From Aquisalimonas sp. 2447 (GTDB taxonomy: Bacteria > Pseudomonadota > Gammaproteobacteria > Nitrococcales > Aquisalimonadaceae): a stretch of 64,000 bases of DNA. The position numbers and the translations under genes are program-made. The stretch's first letter is position 1; each line of letters starts with the position of its first letter. The notes below the pieces were generated by a model. It saw nothing but the letters and a program-made list of their open reading frames with translations, was not told the origin of the DNA and ran no database searches. The stretch spans positions 2,076,501 to 2,140,500 of the forward strand of contig NZ_CP050695.1 in NCBI RefSeq assembly GCF_012044895.1. Reading direction: 5' to 3'. This document shows, in pieces, positions 17,152-27,948 of the stretch.

Positions 17152-18021
17152 GTGTACATCCTGATCGAACTTCTGCAACTGAGCATTTACGGGATCGTTC
17201 TGGGCAGCATCCTGACCCTGGGTGCCATCGGCGTGTCCATGATCTTCGGCATCCTGCGCTTCGCGCACTTTGCCCATGGCGACCTCATCACCGTCGGCGC
17301 CTACGTGGGCATGGGCTTCCTGATGATGACTCACGCCCCGGTCTGGACCGCACTGCCCGCCGGCATGATCGGCGCAGCCATTGTCGCGGTGCTCATTGAC
17401 CAGACCGTGTACAAGCGCATCCGGCGGACGCAGCCGGTGATCCTGCTGATCTCCTCCTTCGGCATCGGCCTGATTCTGCGCAGCCTGGTCCAGGTCATCT
17501 GGGGGCCCAGCGTTTACAGCTTCCCGGGCGGCATTCAGCGGCCCTGGATGGTCTGGGAACTTGCGATCATTCCCAATCACCTGTGGATTCTTCTTGCGGC
17601 AGTGGTCATTGTCACCGCCCTGCACCTCTTCCTCACCCGCACGCGCATCGGCAAGGCCATGCGGGCCATGTCCGACAACATGGACCTGGCGCTGGTCACC
17701 GGCATCCCCGCCGAACGTGTGATCATGATCACCTGGCTGTTGGGTGGCGCGCTGGCTGCAGGGGCCGGCGTGCTGTTGGGCATGGACTCCCGGCTGACGC
17801 CGACCATGGGCTGGAACATCCTGCTGCCGGTCTTCGCCGCGGCGATTGTCGGCGGCATCGGCCGACCCTACGGGGCGATTGCCGGCGGCATGCTGATTGG
17901 GCTGGCCATGGAAATCTCGACCCTGTTCCTCGAGCCGTCGTACAAGCCGGCGGTGGCATTCCTCATCATGGTGGCGGTGCTCATCATCCGCCCGCAGGGC
18001 ATCTTCAAGGGGGCGTGGTAA
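17152..18021 (+). CDS. livH: Branched-chain amino acid ABC transporter permease, LivH type
   Basis: This 289-residue integral membrane permease has about eight hydrophobic segments. The LivH-type N-terminal segment GIVLGSILTLGAIGVSMIFG and the cytoplasmic loop RTRIGKAMRAMSDNMDLA with the EAA-like site GIPAERV are visible. It starts at GTG 17152, and its TAA overlaps the next ATG by one base (TAATG), indicating strong coupling with livM. It forms the membrane channel together with LivM. Confidence 0.88.
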   Translation: MYILIELLQLSIYGIVLGSILTLGAIGVSMIFGILRFAHFAHGDLITVGAYVGMGFLMMTHAPVWTALPAGMIGAAIVAVLIDQTVYKRIRRTQPVILLISSFGIGLILRSLVQVIWGPSVYSFPGGIQRPWMVWELAIIPNHLWILLAAVVIVTALHLFLTRTRIGKAMRAMSDNMDLALVTGIPAERVIMITWLLGGALAAGAGVLLGMDSRLTPTMGWNILLPVFAAAIVGGIGRPYGAIAGGMLIGLAMEISTLFLEPSYKPAVAFLIMVAVLIIRPQGIFKGAW

Positions 18022-18986
18022 TGGAAATCTCCGGCATCGCGGCGTACCTGGTCTCGTTTTTCACCTTCGTGGGCATCTACGCCATCCTGGCGCTGGGCCT
18101 GAACATGCAGTGGGGCTTCACCGGCCAGTTCAACATCGGCATCGCCGGTTTCTTCGCCGTGGGGGCATATACCAGCGCCATTCTCACCACGCCGGAAAGC
18201 CCCTGGCATGTTGGCGGTTTCCAGTACCCGTTCCTGATCGGCGTGGCGGGTGCGGTGATCGCCTCGGCACTGGTCGGCCTGATCATCGGCGCCATCACCG
18301 CCCGGTTGCGCACCGACTACCTGGCCATTGCCACCATCGGCATTGCCGAAACCCTGCGCCTCGTCATTGCCAACGAAGGCTGGCTCACCAACGGTGTGCG
18401 GGGCATGTCCAATATTGATCGGCCATTCAGCGATTTTTTTCAGGCCATCGGTCTGAGTTCCGCCATGGGTTCGCTCATTGTGGTGGCGGTGTTTCTGGTC
18501 GGCGTCTACTTCCTGGTGGAGCGCGCACGGCGATCTCCCTGGGGGCGGGTGCTGCGGGCCATCCGTGAGGATGAACCCGCCACCGCCGCGGCGGGCAAGA
18601 ACATCCGTCGGTTCCGGCTGGAGGCGTTCGTGGTGGGCTCAGCAATCATGGGCCTGGGCGGCGCACTGTACGCCCACTATTTCGGCTTCCTCAGCCCGGA
18701 GGCGTTCCTGCCGCTGTACGGCACGTTTCTGGTCTGGGTGATGCTGATCGCCGGTGGCAGCGGCAACAACAAGGGCGCGCTACTGGGCGCTGTGGTCATC
18801 TGGACGATCTGGTCCGGCAGCGAGTTCGTGATGAGTGCCGGTCTACCGGAAGGCTACACGGGCTATGCCGGACCGCTGCGTGTAATCCTCATCGGCGTGC
18901 TGCTGCAGGTGATCCTGATTACGCGGCCTGAAGGCATTCTGCCGGAGAAAGCACCACCCGCCATCGCCAAGGGGCGGCGGGATTAG
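18021..18986 (+). CDS. livM: Branched-chain amino acid ABC transporter permease, LivM type
   Basis: This 321-residue second permease has about nine hydrophobic segments. Typical LivM features are LALGLNMQWGFTGQFNIGIA, ARRSPWGRVLRAIREDEPA and the C-terminal RPEGILPE. The start overlaps the livH stop. It is the last gene of the operon. Transcription then meets a 13-bp hairpin and the convergent binding-protein gene. Confidence 0.88.
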   Translation: MEISGIAAYLVSFFTFVGIYAILALGLNMQWGFTGQFNIGIAGFFAVGAYTSAILTTPESPWHVGGFQYPFLIGVAGAVIASALVGLIIGAITARLRTDYLAIATIGIAETLRLVIANEGWLTNGVRGMSNIDRPFSDFFQAIGLSSAMGSLIVVAVFLVGVYFLVERARRSPWGRVLRAIREDEPATAAAGKNIRRFRLEAFVVGSAIMGLGGALYAHYFGFLSPEAFLPLYGTFLVWVMLIAGGSGNNKGALLGAVVIWTIWSGSEFVMSAGLPEGYTGYAGPLRVILIGVLLQVILITRPEGILPEKAPPAIAKGRRD

Positions 18987-19089: not shown

Positions 19090-20307
19090 TCAGTCTTCAG
19101 CAGGGGCGAACACGCGCACGGTGCGAATCTCGCCGTCTTCCACACGCCAGTGAGCGAACGTGCCGGGCACGTCCCCGTGCTCGTCGAGATCCACGCTGCC
19201 GGAGGCGCCCTCGTAATTGATCTCCTCGCCATCGGCAAGCAGTTGCAGGGCCTTTTCCCATTCGCCGGGATTCACCACCTCGCCGGGCGGATTGGCCACC
19301 GAACGCAGGTTGTCACGAATGGCCGTACGATCCAGGACGCCGGCCTGCTGCGCCGCCAGGGCGATCAGATAGACTGCATCGTAGGCCGTGTCCATGAACG
19401 GCTGGGGCGGCACCTCACCGTAGGCCTCGGAATAGGCAGCCTCGAAGTGCTGCGCCCCGGGAGTGTCCTCCAGGGCTCGCGGCACGGAGCCCACGGCACC
19501 TTCCATGAACTCGGCGCCAATGGCGTTGATCATGTCAGGCGACTGCAGGCCGTCGGTGAACACGAAGTTCTCGAACATGCCACCTTCCACGGCTTGCCGC
19601 AGTATGGTCTGACCGTTCTCCGGATACCCGATCAGCACCAGGCCCTCGGTATCACCACGGCTGACCCGCCGGAGTTCCCCGCGATAGGACGATTGACCAG
19701 GCTCGTAGGCGGCCATCTCGGAGACCGTGTGACCGCGGGCCTCGAAAGCGTCCCGGAAGTTTTCCGCGAGCCCGAGACCGTAGTCGTTGTTGATGTAGAG
19801 GATGGAGAGGTTGGAATAACCGGACTCCTCGGCGATCTCGGCAAGGGCGATGCCCTGGAACGCGTCCGACGGCACCGTGCGGAACAGGAAATCGTCGTCG
19901 TCGAGATCGGTGATGACCGGGGACGTCGAGGCACCACTGATCTGCGGAATGCCTTCCTGGCGACTCACGCTCTGGGCGACCGGGATGGTGACGCCGCTGG
20001 AGAGGGCGCCCACGAAAGCGTGGACACCTTCCACCGAGGCGAGGCGCTGGGCGGCATCAACGCCGGCCTGGGGGCTGGTCTGGGTGTCCCCGCCGACCAG
20101 TTGGATGTCCTCGCCGAGCACGCCTCCGGCGGCATTGATCTCGTCGACGGCCAGCCGGATGCCGTTTCGGGAGGTTTCGCCATAGTCCTGGAGGTCACCC
20201 GTGAGCGGCACCAGGGCGCCGATGCGGAGATTGTCAGCGGTTGCCCCGGCGCTGACCCCCAGCGACAGTGCGACGCCGAGTCCGATGGTCCAAGCGGTAT
20301 GTTTCAT
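19090..20307 (-). CDS. Periplasmic amino acid binding protein of a HAAT-family ABC transporter
   Basis: The 405-residue type I periplasmic binding protein has a signal peptide (GLGVALSLGVSAGATA, cleavage near ADNLRIG). It is LivJ-like: IGALVPLTGDLQDYGE, GIRLAVDEINAAGG, VGALSSGVTIPVAQ and ILYINNDYGLGLAENF. The start ATG 20307 has AAGGAGAAG just upstream. It is almost certainly the receptor for the convergent livGFHM system, although it is transcribed separately. Substrate specificity cannot be read from sequence; branched-chain amino acids or related amides are likely. Confidence 0.85.
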   Translation of the reverse strand: MKHTAWTIGLGVALSLGVSAGATADNLRIGALVPLTGDLQDYGETSRNGIRLAVDEINAAGGVLGEDIQLVGGDTQTSPQAGVDAAQRLASVEGVHAFVGALSSGVTIPVAQSVSRQEGIPQISGASTSPVITDLDDDDFLFRTVPSDAFQGIALAEIAEESGYSNLSILYINNDYGLGLAENFRDAFEARGHTVSEMAAYEPGQSSYRGELRRVSRGDTEGLVLIGYPENGQTILRQAVEGGMFENFVFTDGLQSPDMINAIGAEFMEGAVGSVPRALEDTPGAQHFEAAYSEAYGEVPPQPFMDTAYDAVYLIALAAQQAGVLDRTAIRDNLRSVANPPGEVVNPGEWEKALQLLADGEEINYEGASGSVDLDEHGDVPGTFAHWRVEDGEIRTVRVFAPAED

Positions 20308-22538: not shown

Positions 22539-24401
22539 CTAATCTGCCTCCGCACTCTCGCCGTTGTTGCTGGCAACGGCGCGGGGATCCTTCGGATAAT
22601 ACCGCTCCGGCAGACGCTCCATGTGGGTGAAGTACCGCGTATCCTTGTACGGCATCTTCATGTAGCCCGACACGCCCAGTCCTTCGATGAGCGGTACCGC
22701 GGCAAGGATCTCGTCCAGGCGCTGACGGAACTCCTCCTCGCATGCGGGATCCAGCAATCGATAATAGCTGTGGATCTTCAGGTGGTACGGCAATGCCTCG
22801 AAGATGATCATGCCCGTGTGGTGAATCGTGTTCAGCGCTTCCAGCGAGCGCATGATCTCGTCTGGCAGGACCAGCAGCTCCTCGGGATCCGGGCCATCCT
22901 CGAAGTACGAATGTTCCCGCGTGCGATCCTCGGGCTCCGGCGCCGAACTCACTTCGTACGGCAGCCGCATGTCTGCGTCCGGAATGAATGGTGCGGCGGC
23001 GGTGTCCCGGTCGATGTGCAGCGTGTCGCGGGCATTGAACAGGCAGCTCTTGAATATGCCCTGGCGATAGATGGCCCGGGCCAGATTGACCATGTTGTTC
23101 ACCGCCGTGATGAATGCGGTCTTGCGTTCCGGGTCGTGGAGGTTCAACGAGGTGTCGATGTAGATACCCTCCTTCTCCCAGCGCACTGCCAGGCCGCCCA
23201 CCACCGGGTAGCGGCCCAGGCGGCTGACAGCAGCCAGGAATGCCTTCTCGGTGTCGCCCATGCCCTGCATGAAATTCCGGTAGTAGCGGTCCAGTTGCAC
23301 GTCATTGACGTCGCTGAGAGTCTCCTCGGCGCCCTCTTCCCGCAGGAACGATTTCCGCGAGCTGTATACCACCGTGTCGATCTCGCGGTCGGTGCGGCGC
23401 ATCCACACCGGCACTGCCGGCGTCGGCGCCGGCTCCGGCAGGTCGATCATCACGGTGCGGCCGATGCGCGGCATTTCCCGCAGGAAGTAGTCCCCGGCGC
23501 GTCGGCGCAGGTCGGTATCGGCATCCAGCATGCCCTCGAGCAGACGCGCGAACTCGATGGGCAGACCCAGCGACGTGGGCGGAATGGCGCGGTAGCCGAA
23601 ACGGCAGGATTGCCCGGAGGCCAGGGCATAGAGCGCGCCCGCCGCTCCCTGCTCGTCGAAACGTGGCGACGACAACGCGCCGTTCAGCTGCTCTTCGCCG
23701 ATGAAGTAGACATCGCCCAGGCGCGCATTGGTCTGCTGCAGGTTGTCCGACATCAGTTCCATGACCTTCGGTGCCACGAACTGGTAATTCTCGTCCACCT
23801 GGGCAAACACGGAAGAGCCCCAGTCGATCAGGGCAATGGTTTCGGTATTCTCGTCGAACACCAGGTTGGACGGCTTGATGTCGCCGTGCACGATGGGCCG
23901 CCCCGCCGGGCCGGCCTCACTGCGCAGGGCGCGCAGAATATCCGCGAGCTGGGCGCCGATACGCACGATCAAACGCGGAGGCAGGCGCCCCTCGCGCAGG
24001 GAGATCTCTTCCAGGTTGAACCCGGGGGCACGCTCCATGACCAGCAGCGACTGGTTACGTACCCGCTGGAAAGTGATCAACCGCGGCACCCGGGGGTGGT
24101 TGACCTGGCTGAGCATGAACGCCTCTTCTTCGAGGCGGTCCTGGATATGCTGCGGCAGGGTAATGCGGGTGAACTTGAAGACGTGCTCCACGCGGCGGCC
24201 ATCCGAACCGGTGACGGCACCGGCGAAGACGAACCCGTAGGCGCCCTTGCCGATCAGCTCAATGTCGCGGTAACCGAGCTGTTGCAACTGGTTGGTGCAC
24301 AGGGCCACCCAGTCCTTCAGCTTCTTGGCGTCACCGTGACTGAGCAGGTAAACGGACTGCTCTTCGGGAATGTAGAACTGCTGAATGGGGGCGTCGACCA
24401 T
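22539..24401 (-). CDS. Hanks-type serine/threonine protein kinase with a large C-terminal region
   Basis: The 620-residue cytosolic protein has no membrane segment. The kinase domain spans about residues 45-320: glycine loop GKGAYG (51-56), ATP lysine K76 in VFKFT, catalytic loop HGDIKPSN (172-179; D174, K176 and N179 all present) and DWG (193-195) replacing DFG. It is therefore probably active, not a pseudokinase. The arginine before the catalytic aspartate is missing (HGD, not HRD), so activation-loop phosphorylation may be unnecessary. Residues 345-620 form an unrecognised region with blocks YYRNFMQGMGDTEKAFLAAV and NLARAIYRQGIFKSCLFNAR. The gene begins 21 bp after bkdB on the same strand, so it is likely the last gene of the dehydrogenase operon. 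Its Shine-Dalgarno spacing is poor. Confidence 0.8.
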   Translation of the reverse strand: MVDAPIQQFYIPEEQSVYLLSHGDAKKLKDWVALCTNQLQQLGYRDIELIGKGAYGFVFAGAVTGSDGRRVEHVFKFTRITLPQHIQDRLEEEAFMLSQVNHPRVPRLITFQRVRNQSLLVMERAPGFNLEEISLREGRLPPRLIVRIGAQLADILRALRSEAGPAGRPIVHGDIKPSNLVFDENTETIALIDWGSSVFAQVDENYQFVAPKVMELMSDNLQQTNARLGDVYFIGEEQLNGALSSPRFDEQGAAGALYALASGQSCRFGYRAIPPTSLGLPIEFARLLEGMLDADTDLRRRAGDYFLREMPRIGRTVMIDLPEPAPTPAVPVWMRRTDREIDTVVYSSRKSFLREEGAEETLSDVNDVQLDRYYRNFMQGMGDTEKAFLAAVSRLGRYPVVGGLAVRWEKEGIYIDTSLNLHDPERKTAFITAVNNMVNLARAIYRQGIFKSCLFNARDTLHIDRDTAAAPFIPDADMRLPYEVSSAPEPEDRTREHSYFEDGPDPEELLVLPDEIMRSLEALNTIHHTGMIIFEALPYHLKIHSYYRLLDPACEEEFRQRLDEILAAVPLIEGLGVSGYMKMPYKDTRYFTHMERLPERYYPKDPRAVASNNGESAEAD

Positions 24402-24422
24402 GCTCCGTACCGTGACCGCGGA

Positions 24423-25727
24423 TCAGCGCAGGTGCAACAGCATGGCGTCCGGCGACTCCAGCAGGCGCTTCCAGCGATTGCAGAAGCGCGCCATGGTGCC
24501 GCCGTCAATGATGCGGTGATCGCCCGCCCAGCTCACCGGCAGGATCGCGCGCTTCACCACTCGATCCTCGGCGTCGAACCGCGGCAGGTACTGGGTTCGT
24601 CCCAGGGCGGCAATCGCCACCTCCGGCGCGTTGATGATGGGCGCCGCGTAGGTGCCGCCCAGGGCGCCGATGTTGGACAGGGTGATGGTACCGCCCTGCA
24701 GGTCCTGCCGCGTGACCCGGCCGGCACGGGCGGCCTCGACCAGACGTGCCACCTCCGTGGCGATCTCCAGCAGCGTCCTCTGCTCCACCTGCTTGACGTT
24801 GGGGACCACCAGGCCGGCCTCGCTGTCCACCGCCATGCCGATGTTGCAGTGGGGCTGGTAGTGAATCTCGGTGACCGCGTCGTTGACGCGACTGTTCAGC
24901 AGCGGGTAGTCCGACGTCGCTACGGCCAGGGCTTTCATGAAGAACGGCATGAGCGTGAGTCGTACGCCCTGCGCCTCGGCCTCGGGCCGGAGACGCTCCC
25001 GCAGCGCAATGAGGTCGGTGACGTCGATTTCCTCGCCGTAGATGAAATGGGGCACGGTGGCGGCGGCATGGGCCATGTGCTTGGCCATGGCCGCGCGCGT
25101 GCCCTTGATGGGCTCCACGCGCATCTCGCCCGGCGACGGCGCCGGCCCGGCCGCCGGAGCGGTGTCGGGCTCCTCCCTGCGGTCGCCGGCCGTGGTTTCA
25201 TCCAGGTGGGCGAGCACGTCGGCCTTGAGCACGCGGCCATGCTTGCCGGAACCGCGGATGTCGTCCAGGCGCAGGCCGTGCTCCCGAACCATCCGCCGCA
25301 CGGCCGGCGTGGCCGGCGTGCGCAGCCGCCCCGGGCCACCCGGCGCGGTGGCCACCGGGGTCGCCACCGGTTCAGCCTGCTCCGGCGTTGCCCGTGCAGG
25401 CTCCGCGGGGGGTGCCGGGGCCGACTCCGTGCGTGACTCGTCCTCCTGCTCCGGCTGGGGTCCTGCCGGCGGCGCCTTGTCGTCCTCGCCCTCGCCGGTG
25501 TCGTAGGCGAACAACGGCTCGTGCACCCGCGCGATTTCGCCCTCGCTGTAGTACAGGCGCGTGATTCTGCCCTGCTCCGGCGCCGGGATCTCCACCAGCG
25601 CCTTGTCCGTCATGACCTCCACCACGGGCTGGTCTTCGGCGACCACGTCCCCTTCCCGGACAAGCCACTTGGTGAGTTCGCACTCGACGATGCCTTCGCC
25701 GATGTCGGGCAGAATGAAGTCGGTCAT
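24423..25727 (-). CDS. bkdB: Branched-chain 2-oxoacid dehydrogenase E2 (dihydrolipoyl acyltransferase)
   Basis: The 434-residue E2 core transfers the acyl group from E1 to CoA. A single lipoyl domain lies at residues 1-78, with K42 in MTDKALVE as the lipoylation site. A Pro/Ala/Glu-rich linker follows, then an E1/E3-binding domain at about 137-173 (TPATPAVRRMVREHGLRL, GSGKHGRVLKADV). The acyltransferase domain has the catalytic H404 and D408 in DHRIIDG. It could alternatively serve another 2-oxoacid, but the E1 subunits match the BCKDH type. No E3 (lpd) gene is nearby. The kinase gene follows after 21 bp. Confidence 0.88.
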   Translation of the reverse strand: MTDFILPDIGEGIVECELTKWLVREGDVVAEDQPVVEVMTDKALVEIPAPEQGRITRLYYSEGEIARVHEPLFAYDTGEGEDDKAPPAGPQPEQEDESRTESAPAPPAEPARATPEQAEPVATPVATAPGGPGRLRTPATPAVRRMVREHGLRLDDIRGSGKHGRVLKADVLAHLDETTAGDRREEPDTAPAAGPAPSPGEMRVEPIKGTRAAMAKHMAHAAATVPHFIYGEEIDVTDLIALRERLRPEAEAQGVRLTLMPFFMKALAVATSDYPLLNSRVNDAVTEIHYQPHCNIGMAVDSEAGLVVPNVKQVEQRTLLEIATEVARLVEAARAGRVTRQDLQGGTITLSNIGALGGTYAAPIINAPEVAIAALGRTQYLPRFDAEDRVVKRAILPVSWAGDHRIIDGGTMARFCNRWKRLLESPDAMLLHLR

Positions 25728-25784
25728 GGTTGTTCTTCCTCGCTCCTCGCGCAGGGCGAACGGACGGCGCCGGTCCGGTCCCGG

Positions 25785-26762
25785 TCAGAATTCGACACTG
25801 GCCCTGATGGCCTCGAAGACCTTCAGGTGATCGGGCATGTACTCCTTTTCCAGGGCCAGCGGGAAGGGCGTATCCAGCCCGGTGACCCGCATCACCGGTG
25901 ATTCCAGGTACAGGAAACACCGCTCCTGGATGGTGGCTGCGATCTCGCCGCCGAACCCGCCGGTCAATGGTGCCTCATGGGTGACCACCAGGCGTCCTGT
26001 CTTGAGAACGGACTCTGCCACCGTCTCCGCGTCCCAGGGTAGAATCGTCCGCAGATCAATGACCTCGCAGGAGATGTTCTCCTTGTCTGCGAGCTCCACC
26101 GCCTGCTGCACCGCCTCCATCTGGGCGCCCCAGGCCACCAGGGTCACGTCCGAGCCCTCCTTGACCACCTCGGCCTCGCCCAGGGGAAGCTGGTAGTCGG
26201 TTTCCGGCACGTCACCCACCGAAGCGCGGTAGAGCCGCTTGGGTTCGAAGAAGATCACCGGGTTCGGGTCCCGGATGGCGCCCAGGAGGAGGCCCTTCGC
26301 CTGGTGGGCATTACGCGGCACGACGATCTTCAGCCCGGGGGTGTGCGCGAAGTACGCCTCGGGTGACTGCGAGTGGTAATGGCCGCCGGAAATGCCGCCG
26401 CCGTAGGGGGCTCGGATGGTCAGGCCGCCGACGTTGAAGAGATTGCCGGAGCGGTAGCGGTACTTGGCCGACTCGTTCACGATCTGGTCGAAGGCCGGGA
26501 AGATGTAGTCCGCGAACTGGATTTCTGCCACCGGGATCGAGCCCTGGGCCGCAAGGCCGTTGGCGAAGCCCACAATGCCCTGCTCCACCAGGGGCGTGTT
26601 GAAGCACCGCGCCTTGCCGTACTTATCCTGCAGATTGCTGGTGGCCCGGAAGACGCCGCCGAAACCGCCCACGTCCTCACCGAAGCACAGCACGCGCTCA
26701 TCGGTCTCCATGGCGATATCCAGGCCGTGATTGATGGCCTGCAGCATGTTCATCCTGGCCAT
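25785..26762 (-). CDS. bkdA2: Branched-chain 2-oxoacid dehydrogenase E1 beta subunit
   Basis: The 325-residue transketolase-like subunit forms an alpha2beta2 E1 that decarboxylates branched-chain 2-oxoacids with ThDP. Recognisable segments are [57 protein letters not shown] and [19 protein letters not shown]. The C-terminal [13 protein letters not shown] is complete. The start lies one base after the E1alpha stop, giving tight coupling and equal stoichiometry. A 57-bp gap precedes bkdB. Confidence 0.92.
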
Positions 26763-26763
26763 G

Positions 26764-27948
26764 TCAGTCGCCTCCGTTCACCTGGGACGCCGTCTTCGGG
26801 TAGCTGTCGGGGTACTTGCGGATATGCTGCCTGAGCCGATCCAGCTGCTCCGTGAGCGCAGGTGTGAGCTGGTCGTAGACATCGGTGACCAGGCTGTCCA
26901 GGGGGACGGAGGGGCGCTTCTCGGCGCGTTTCATGGTGTCGAGAATCTCCTTGCGCAGGGATTCCTGCAGGCTCTTGTCCTCGTCCTCGCTCCACCATTC
27001 GCGGCCGATCAACCACAGCCGCATGCGCAGGATCGGGTCCTTGTCCCGCCAGCCCTCCTCTTCCGTACGGCTGCGGTAGGCGGACGGATCATCGGAGGAG
27101 GAGTGCCCCGCAAGGCGGTAGGTCATGGCCTCGATCAGGACCGGGCGATCATCCTCCACGGCCAGGCGGCGCGCCGCTGCGGTCGCCTCGTGCATGGCGA
27201 GAATGTCATTGCCATCGACGCGGATGACATGCATGCGGTAGCCGAAGGCGCGCGGCGCCACGCCGTCGGCTGCGAACTGCTCCACCGTCGGTGTCGAAAT
27301 GGCGTAGCCGTTGTTGCGGCAGAGGAAGATCACCGGTGCCCGGTGCACCGCGGCCATGTTCAGTGCGGCATGGAAATCCCCTTCGGAGGCGGCACCCTCG
27401 CCGAAGTAGGTGATGGTGCAGTGCCCGTCTCCGGCGAGCTTCTGCCCGTAGGCGTAGCCCACGGCCTGCGGAATCTGCGTGGCCAGGGGCGAGGAGATGG
27501 TGACGTAGTTCAGGGTCGCCGACCCGTAGTGCACCGGCATCTGCCGGCCCTTGCCGTAATCGAGCTCGTTGCCGAAGAGCTGGTTCATGAACTCGTCGGT
27601 GGTGAATCCCCGGTAGGCCAGAGCGCCCTGCTCCCGGTACTGGGCCATGATCACGTCGTCGTCTTGCAGCGCCGCCGTGCTGCCGATCACCGCCGCCTCC
27701 TCGCCTGTGCACTGCATGTAGAAACTCAGCCGCCCCTGGCGCTGGGCCGCCATCATGCGCTCGTCCAGGACCCGCGTGAAGACCATGGCCCGGTAGATCC
27801 GCAGCGCCTTGTCCCGATCCAGCGGCGGCGTCTCGGCCCCCTCGCAGAGGGTTCCGTCCTCCTGCAGCAATCGGTAGGTGGGGATGCGGAATTCGTCGCC
27901 GGTGGTGAACTGCGGGATGCGGATCTCTTCCGGGGGGGTGTCTGTCAT
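26764..27948 (-). CDS. bkdA1: Branched-chain 2-oxoacid dehydrogenase E1 alpha subunit
   Basis: The 394-residue ThDP-binding subunit is the first gene of the operon. The ThDP/Mg2+ motif runs from GEGAASEG (183-190) to NN (212-213). After H282 comes a phosphorylation-loop-like segment, [11 protein letters not shown] (283-293). This closely resembles the loop of animal BCKDH E1alpha that BCKDH kinase phosphorylates, and S293 occupies the equivalent YRS serine. The C-terminus resembles the mitochondrial subunit ([31 protein letters not shown]). With a protein kinase in the same operon this is notable. Confidence 0.93.

Follow-up and report, generated by a model that had tools for sequence, protein, structure and literature searches.

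A gene encoding a protein kinase of the Hanks type was found to form a block with the genes of a branched-chain 2-oxoacid dehydrogenase (BCKDH, bkd genes) in Aquisalimonas sp. 2447, within a stretch of 64,000 nucleotides of contig NZ_CP050695.1 (positions 2,076,501 to 2,140,500), which is called the window here. The block lies at 27948-22539 on the minus strand, where the genes encoding E1alpha, E1beta, E2 and the kinase follow one another in this order and in the same direction. The best reading of these data is that the protein is a Hanks-fold kinase analogous, but not homologous, to the mitochondrial BCKDH kinase (BCKDK). On balance, we favor a kinase dedicated to the BCKDH complex, which it would phosphorylate, most likely on the loop of E1alpha formed by residues 277-293, thus lowering the activity of the complex. 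The features involved are the following:

26764-27948, minus strand: BCKDH E1alpha, 394 amino acids, mitochondrial-like (Pfam E1_dh, 319 bits; 1dtw, 387 bits; 1qs0, 206 bits).
25785-26762, minus strand: BCKDH E1beta, 325 amino acids (Pfam Transket_pyr, 141 bits; Transketolase_C, 136 bits).
24423-25727, minus strand: BCKDH E2, 434 amino acids, with a single lipoyl domain, an E3-binding domain and an acyltransferase domain (Pfam 2-oxoacid_dh, 271 bits; Biotin_lipoyl; E3_binding).
22539-24401, minus strand: Hanks-type protein kinase with a C-terminal extension, 620 amino acids, starting 21 bp past the E2 stop.
23787-24272, minus strand: kinase domain, residues 44-205 (PF00069 Pkinase, 59.1 bits).
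23865-23888, minus strand: catalytic loop HGDIKPSN, residues 172-179, of the non-RD type (translation of the open reading frame and alignment of homologues).
22578-23390, minus strand: C-terminal region of the kinase, residues 338-608, without a Pfam family and perhaps made of two alpha-beta-beta-alpha-beta modules (low-confidence models).
27070-27120, minus strand: E1alpha loop, residues 277-293, with the candidate phosphoacceptors S283 and S293 (alignment to the phosphorylation loop of human BCKDH E1alpha).

The initial annotation had described four co-directional genes with the kinase 21 bp after the E2 stop, and both the coordinates of the open reading frames (ORFs) and the Pfam matches agree with this description. 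The intergenic gaps amount to 1 bp (E1alpha/E1beta), 57 bp (E1beta/E2) and 21 bp (E2/kinase, 24402-24422), and the first three products have the composition of a BCKDH: E1alpha, E1beta, and an E2 with lipoyl, E3-binding and acyltransferase domains (Pfam). The score of the kinase with PF00069 exceeds the cut-off of that family (59.1 vs. 31.7 bits), and neither a GHKL ATPase domain nor a BCDHK adaptor domain, as in the BCKDK/PDK family, was detected in it (Pfam, E up to 0.1), so that its previous assignment to the Hanks fold and not to the GHKL type is borne out.

In an alignment of 117 kinase sequences, that of the window included, residues G51, G53, K76, E93, H172, D174, K176, N179, D193, G195, D249 and G252 are invariant (117/117), and G56 of the glycine loop is kept in 114/117. 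The glycine loop, the lysine, the alphaC glutamate, the HxD...K..N motif and the metal-binding DxG motif of the Hanks kinases are therefore all present. The view that the kinase looks active, which had been based on D174, K176, N179 and the glycine loop (G51, G53, G56), extends to K76, E93 and D193; the ORF is intact over at least 600 amino acids in 80/80 named homologues, and judging from these residues the enzyme looks catalytically competent. Most Hanks kinases carry Arg at the HRD position and Phe at the DFG position. Here the catalytic motif is HGD (G173 in 85/85 sequences and in at least 99% of the 117) and the metal-binding motif is DWG (W194 in 117/117), which we take, by comparison with non-RD kinases, to be variant positions. 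In view of what is generally known about the kinase family, the non-RD type suggests that activation-loop phosphorylation is probably not the switch in this case. One damaged copy was seen, that of genome G852 of family f197, which is split at residue 514. The E1alpha of the same genome is also broken, near residue 77, although it lies about 1.5 Mb away from the kinase (L212, L215), and sequencing errors are possible.

That the protein is not a protein kinase in practice, being either a pseudokinase scaffold or a small-molecule kinase or nucleotide-transferring enzyme with a kinase fold, seems highly improbable: the atypical HGD and DWG motifs and the match with the APH family, which at 31.7 bits lies over the cut-off of that family (Pfam), point in this direction, but Pkinase outscores APH (59.1 vs. 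31.7 bits), and the ATP-binding, metal-binding and catalytic residues, some of which a protein acting purely as a scaffold would probably have lost, are invariant in 117/117 sequences. The kinase domain also resembles that of the defence kinases PD-T4-6, MAD6 and PglW (PADLOC PD-T4-6, 67.8 bits; mad6, 64.5 bits), whose models match this domain only. The MAD6 and PglW scores are nevertheless far under the equivalog cut-offs (47.1 of 460 bits and 41.1 of 990 bits, respectively; NCBIfam), and the context in the window is metabolic. No Pfam or NCBIfam model names the kinase family.

The C-terminal half of the kinase gave no Pfam match at E up to 5. The structural models are poor, with a mean predicted local distance difference test score (pLDDT) of 61.8 in the case of the whole kinase and 64.1 in that of the C-terminal region (predicted template-modeling score 0.61), an alpha/beta structure being predicted in the latter with low confidence. 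All 50 matches listed by Foldseek with the whole-kinase model are kinases, the C-terminal model had no Foldseek match at E up to 0.001, and its best VIA-align match (Z 5.6) is at the noise level. The two halves of this region align weakly with each other (hhalign probability 52%), as in a candidate internal duplication. The C-terminal region is likely to be a docking or sensing part, which may act on E2 or on a ligand.

Linkage between the kinase and the bkd genes was analyzed in the best 80 named-genome homologues of at least 564 loci obtained at tblastn 1e-3, some of which may encode other kinases; these 80 are the closest relatives, mostly from Halomonas, Billgrantia, Litchfieldella and Marinobacter, and the sample is therefore biased. 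In 80/80 loci, the kinase is preceded on the same strand by a homologue of the window E2, and E1alpha is in view in 76/80, the contig or the fetched stretch ending first in the remaining four. The median distance from the E2 stop to the kinase start is 21 bp, the gap amounting to 150 bp or less in 66/80 loci and to 350 bp or less in 76/80. In L029, L053, L063 and L068, a gap of 0.7 to 7.6 kb contains other ORFs, the kinase still being located downstream on the same strand. Toxin-antitoxin-like genes, named by eye, sit between E2 and the kinase in two of these loci, both from Halomonas genomes: a nucleotidyltransferase/HEPN-like pair (L029:8042-8936) and a HigA-like antitoxin (L053:9664-9978). 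When the ORFs of 109 loci were clustered, with noisy results, recurrence in most loci was limited to the bkd trio and the kinase.

The distribution of the two genes was then compared in genomes sampled from the Pseudomonadota. In a sample of 398 genomes covering the phylum, E1alpha (E 1e-60) occurred in 89, either at 58% identity or more (29 genomes) or at 43% or less (60 genomes), with nothing between, and the kinase (E 1e-20) was present in exactly the 29 genomes of the first set and in 0/60 of the second, with the same outcome for 51 of these 60 in a further comparison; no genome carried the kinase only or this E1alpha only. In the class sample (369 genomes), all five genomes with an E1alpha at 60% identity or more carried the full kinase, and none of the 11 with an E1alpha at 42% or less did so. 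Family f174 showed no discordant genomes among its 24 genera, both genes being present in 60/81 and neither in 21/81. One of the latter, G929 (95% complete, 230 contigs), belongs to a genus in which the five other genomes sampled have both genes; in three of them the distance is about 17 to 28 kb, and in the other two each gene has its own contig. In family f197, possibly Shewanella judging from the gene context, E1alpha was found in 68/68 genomes and the kinase in 61/68. A full kinase without this clade of E1alpha was not found in any sampled genome, a statement which rests on the 369 genomes of the phylum sample and the 21 of f174 with neither gene. This asymmetry, since the BCKDH sometimes occurs without the kinase, fits an accessory regulator. 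The co-occurrence of kinase and bkd genes across Gammaproteobacteria, which the initial annotation had proposed as a check, is supported in the sense that the kinase is tied to one clade of BCKDH in many genera.

The two genes do not always remain together. Among the phylum genomes with both, 7/29 carry them at least 289 kb apart or on separate contigs; in f174, they lie within about 5 kb of each other in 55/60 genomes; and in f197, the kinase is located more than 1 Mb from the bkd genes in 21/21 single-contig genomes with both, the other 40 consisting of several contigs. A location mostly away from bkd, which had been named beforehand as speaking against a functional link, therefore holds in f197 and in none of the other families sampled. 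As a rule the pair forms a cluster; where it has come apart, most genomes nevertheless retain both genes. The evolutionary distances of E1alpha and the kinase are correlated (0.95 in 101 sequences and 0.79 in the 15 that are unlinked or loosely linked), a correlation which is also expected from vertical descent alone. Taken together, the kinase very probably serves this BCKDH.

It is much less probable that a general Hanks-type kinase settled behind bkd in an ancestor, and that the block was then spread or lost as a unit while the substrates of the kinase lay elsewhere. Such a history would suit the linkage observed at most loci, the existence of genomes with E1alpha only (7/68 in f197), and the grouping of the Aquisalimonas kinases with those of Litchfieldella (support 0.72), as block transfer predicts. 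Against it speak the failure to find the kinase in any of the 369 phylum and 21 f174 genomes lacking this E1alpha clade, its retention more than 1 Mb from bkd in f197, and the four loci where ORFs lie between E2 and a kinase which is yet downstream on the same strand.

The E1alpha of the window is of the mitochondrial type. Among the solved structures, it matches 1dtw best (387 bits), followed by 1um9 (222 bits), 1qs0 (206 bits) and the E1alpha of human pyruvate dehydrogenase (148 bits); we take 1dtw to be human BCKDH E1alpha and 1qs0 to be that of Pseudomonas putida. The best E1alpha from a phylum genome lacking the kinase scores 275 bits against the window protein. E1alpha (26764-27948) is far nearer to the human protein than to that of P. 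putida, and this clade offers an opportunity to look again at the origin of the mitochondrial BCKDH.

Human BCKDH E1alpha is under phosphocontrol. Residues 277-293 of the window protein (17 residues) align without gaps with its loop YRIGHHSTSDDSSAYRS, which carries the two BCKDK sites, at 292 and 302. In the kinase-linked E1alpha sequences, S283 and S285 are present in 81/81 and S293 in 80/81. We suggest that the kinase, made with or in step with the mitochondrial-type complex and docked on it through its C-terminal region, would phosphorylate E1alpha in this serine loop at the entrance of the active site, and that flux would be lowered and branched-chain substrates spared, as branched-chain amino acids or acyl-CoA products demand. 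Direct phosphorylation of the BCKDH complex appears to be quite probable, and the E1alpha loop may be proposed tentatively as the site.

Positions which might separate E1alpha proteins with and without the kinase were also sought. The serine loop as a whole was rejected as a marker, HS[ST]SDD being kept in 7/7 sequences of the same clade from genomes lacking the kinase. Position 293 is Ser/Thr in the kinase-bearing sequences examined, with a single exception, Ser in 2/14 distant ones, and Ser/Thr in 6/7 kinase-less ones, so that it follows ancestry. When the seven kinase-less sequences were first compared with 38 kinase-bearing ones, two positions within or next to the loop, 279 and 303, were the only ones to discriminate, and 303 dropped out with 93 kinase-bearing sequences (G635 and G529 are included twice; columns with fewer than 6 kinase-less or fewer than 30 kinase-bearing letters were excluded). 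In this larger set, position 279 is V in 6/7 kinase-less and L in 93/93 kinase-bearing sequences, position 201 is T or A in 6/7 and V in 93/93, and Q45 of E1beta is K in 6/7 and in 0/93, respectively. These three positions were dropped as a kinase-linked signal, being weak and tied to lineage.

The main rival explanation is that the kinase is a dedicated partner of BCKDH with another target in or around the complex, on the model of PknG and OdhI: E2 (lipoyl domain or linker), E1beta, E3 or a separate inhibitor, in which case the effect could even be an activation. This seems unlikely, although less so than a general kinase. Co-occurrence and linkage would suit any component of the complex, the change at E1beta Q45 speaks for this rival but may reflect lineage history, and no inhibitor gene recurs alongside the kinase in the 109 loci (noisy ORF clustering). 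According to PMC8546545, PknG acts via OdhI and not by direct phosphorylation of E1.

Several observations weigh against a dedicated kinase acting on the E1alpha loop. The HS[ST]SDD loop is also present in 10/14 distant E1alpha sequences, in addition to the seven mentioned above, and since E1alpha proteins without the kinase have it, the loop is a condition for the mechanism but does not count as evidence that this kinase phosphorylates it. In f197, seven genomes out of 68, belonging to two genera, carry this E1alpha clade without the kinase, from which it follows that the BCKDH does not need it; and since all 68 have E1alpha, this family is silent on whether the kinase depends on BCKDH. As most loci are linked, joint presence and absence can also be explained by movement of the block. 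In genome G413 of the class sample, a kinase fragment lies at a contig end and E1alpha was not found at E 1e-20. Lastly, no phosphatase is present among the 25 listed of the 62 Pfam families matched by 94 downstream ORFs, hand-picked out of 156 to remove near-duplicates.

Some of these genomes deserve mention in their own right. In G413 (L019), the gene after the C-terminal kinase fragment looks, by eye, like that of an acyl-CoA dehydrogenase, which is a hint of a tie to leucine breakdown, or else of an assembly gap. The two f197 genera with this BCKDH clade and without the kinase (L195-L201) are natural controls for the effect of the kinase; no replacement kinase was recognized by eye beside bkd in these seven genomes, no family search having been made.

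The downstream ORFs of the homologous loci include acyl-CoA dehydrogenases (4/94) and MerR regulators (3/94; Pfam), as expected beside leucine breakdown. In five f143 genomes, the gene after the kinase is small and, by eye, glyoxalase-like; this also holds where the kinase has left bkd (L180):

L110:7567-7962, L180:5588-5959, L183:7935-8312, L184:5581-5964 and L185:6914-7294: glyoxalase-like gene in five f143 genomes.

In the window itself, the genes flanking the block match DUF192, an SNF-type symporter and a class-V aminotransferase (Pfam), and no phosphatase adjoins the kinase, as had been noted at the outset. Since the flanking genes run in the opposite direction, the block stands alone. 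A GGAG motif ends 1 base 5' of the kinase ATG, nearer than a typical ribosome-binding site; the scan for promoters and terminators gave no site between E2 and the kinase or upstream of E1alpha, its counts not being above chance; and the plasmid search gave no match. A few kb past the kinase, two permeases and a periplasmic binding protein for branched-chain amino acid transport are encoded at 17152-18983 (plus strand) and 19093-20307 (minus strand), so that genes for uptake and breakdown, maybe of the same branched-chain substrates, are both inside the window. By homology, we infer that the BCKDH prefers branched-chain 2-oxoacids, with which these permeases and the acyl-CoA dehydrogenase and MerR neighbors of some homologues agree.

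The nearest named homologue of the kinase is that of a metagenome-assembled Aquisalimonas (95% identity). Aquisalimonas is placed in the Ectothiorhodospiraceae in the NCBI taxonomy, in line with the family named in the initial annotation, and the pairing of the kinase with bkd is not confined to this family. A full-length kinase is present in 4/54 genomes of the host's order; within the genus, G000, G006 and G008 carry both the kinase and E1alpha, and G005 and G007 carry neither, the former having one E1-like match at 28% identity only. The three Aquisalimonas copies and two from Litchfieldella constitute one clade of the kinase tree (support 0.72). With E1alpha, the tree gives a parent clade of 25 in which Marinobacter predominates among the 20 names listed (support 0.85), the nearest E1alpha by distance being that of Litchfieldella. 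The bkd-kinase block probably arrived by transfer.

The BCKDK of mitochondria resembles the kinase of the window in being dedicated to BCKDH, in the present case by association, and in the type of its E1alpha partner, that of the window matching the human protein and having the serine loop. It differs in belonging to the GHKL class of kinases, the window kinase being a Pkinase with no match to any GHKL family (E up to 0.1). In PMC1262709, the mitochondrial pyruvate dehydrogenase and BCKDH kinases are described as a class separate from the Ser/Thr kinases. PknG of the actinobacteria, which acts on OdhI/GarA, likewise combines a Hanks-type kinase with a C-terminal extension and takes part in the control of a bacterial 2-oxoacid dehydrogenase complex (PMC8546545), but its target is an FHA inhibitor of the 2-oxoglutarate dehydrogenase, it has TPR repeats, and its neighbors are glnX and glnH, whereas the window kinase is associated with a BCKDH complex, lies inside the bkd cluster and has a C-terminal region without a Pfam match. 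The BCKDH of the P. putida type also consists of E1alpha, E1beta and an E2 with lipoyl and E3-binding domains. Its E1alpha (1qs0) is, however, distant, and the phylum genomes with an E1alpha at 43% identity or less lack the kinase (0/60).

In the literature covered, which leaves most subscription journals outside, no description of a bkd-linked kinase was found, the accessible parts of PMC3219624 and PMC1262709 included, and two papers on proteobacterial regulons list bkd operons without a kinase being mentioned alongside in the parts available (PMC3223726, PMC5343134). Kinases of this fold are known, as is the concept of a BCKDH kinase; their combination in bacteria appears to be new, the nearest bacterial precedent, PknG-OdhI, being an indirect control. 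Phosphocontrol of 2-oxoacid dehydrogenases via E1alpha is textbook knowledge in the case of mitochondria, and to our knowledge it has not been described in that of a bacterial BCKDH.

The carriers include salt-loving bacteria, in which the kinase may switch BCKDH off as the unrelated mitochondrial kinase does. It is conceivable, if somewhat doubtful, that a gammaproteobacterial BCKDH kinase evolved apart from that of mitochondria by adding a novel C-terminal docking domain to the Hanks fold, and that it inactivates the complex by phosphorylation at the same E1alpha loop, two unrelated folds thus converging on one serine. If this is true, the convergent evolution of enzyme control would become directly testable in bacteria that can be grown and submitted to gene deletion, such as Halomonas and Marinobacter. 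A substrate would be assigned to a whole family of kinases so far without one (80 loci, the best of at least 564 at tblastn 1e-3), and the finding would be relevant to the engineering of branched-chain catabolism in Halomonas.

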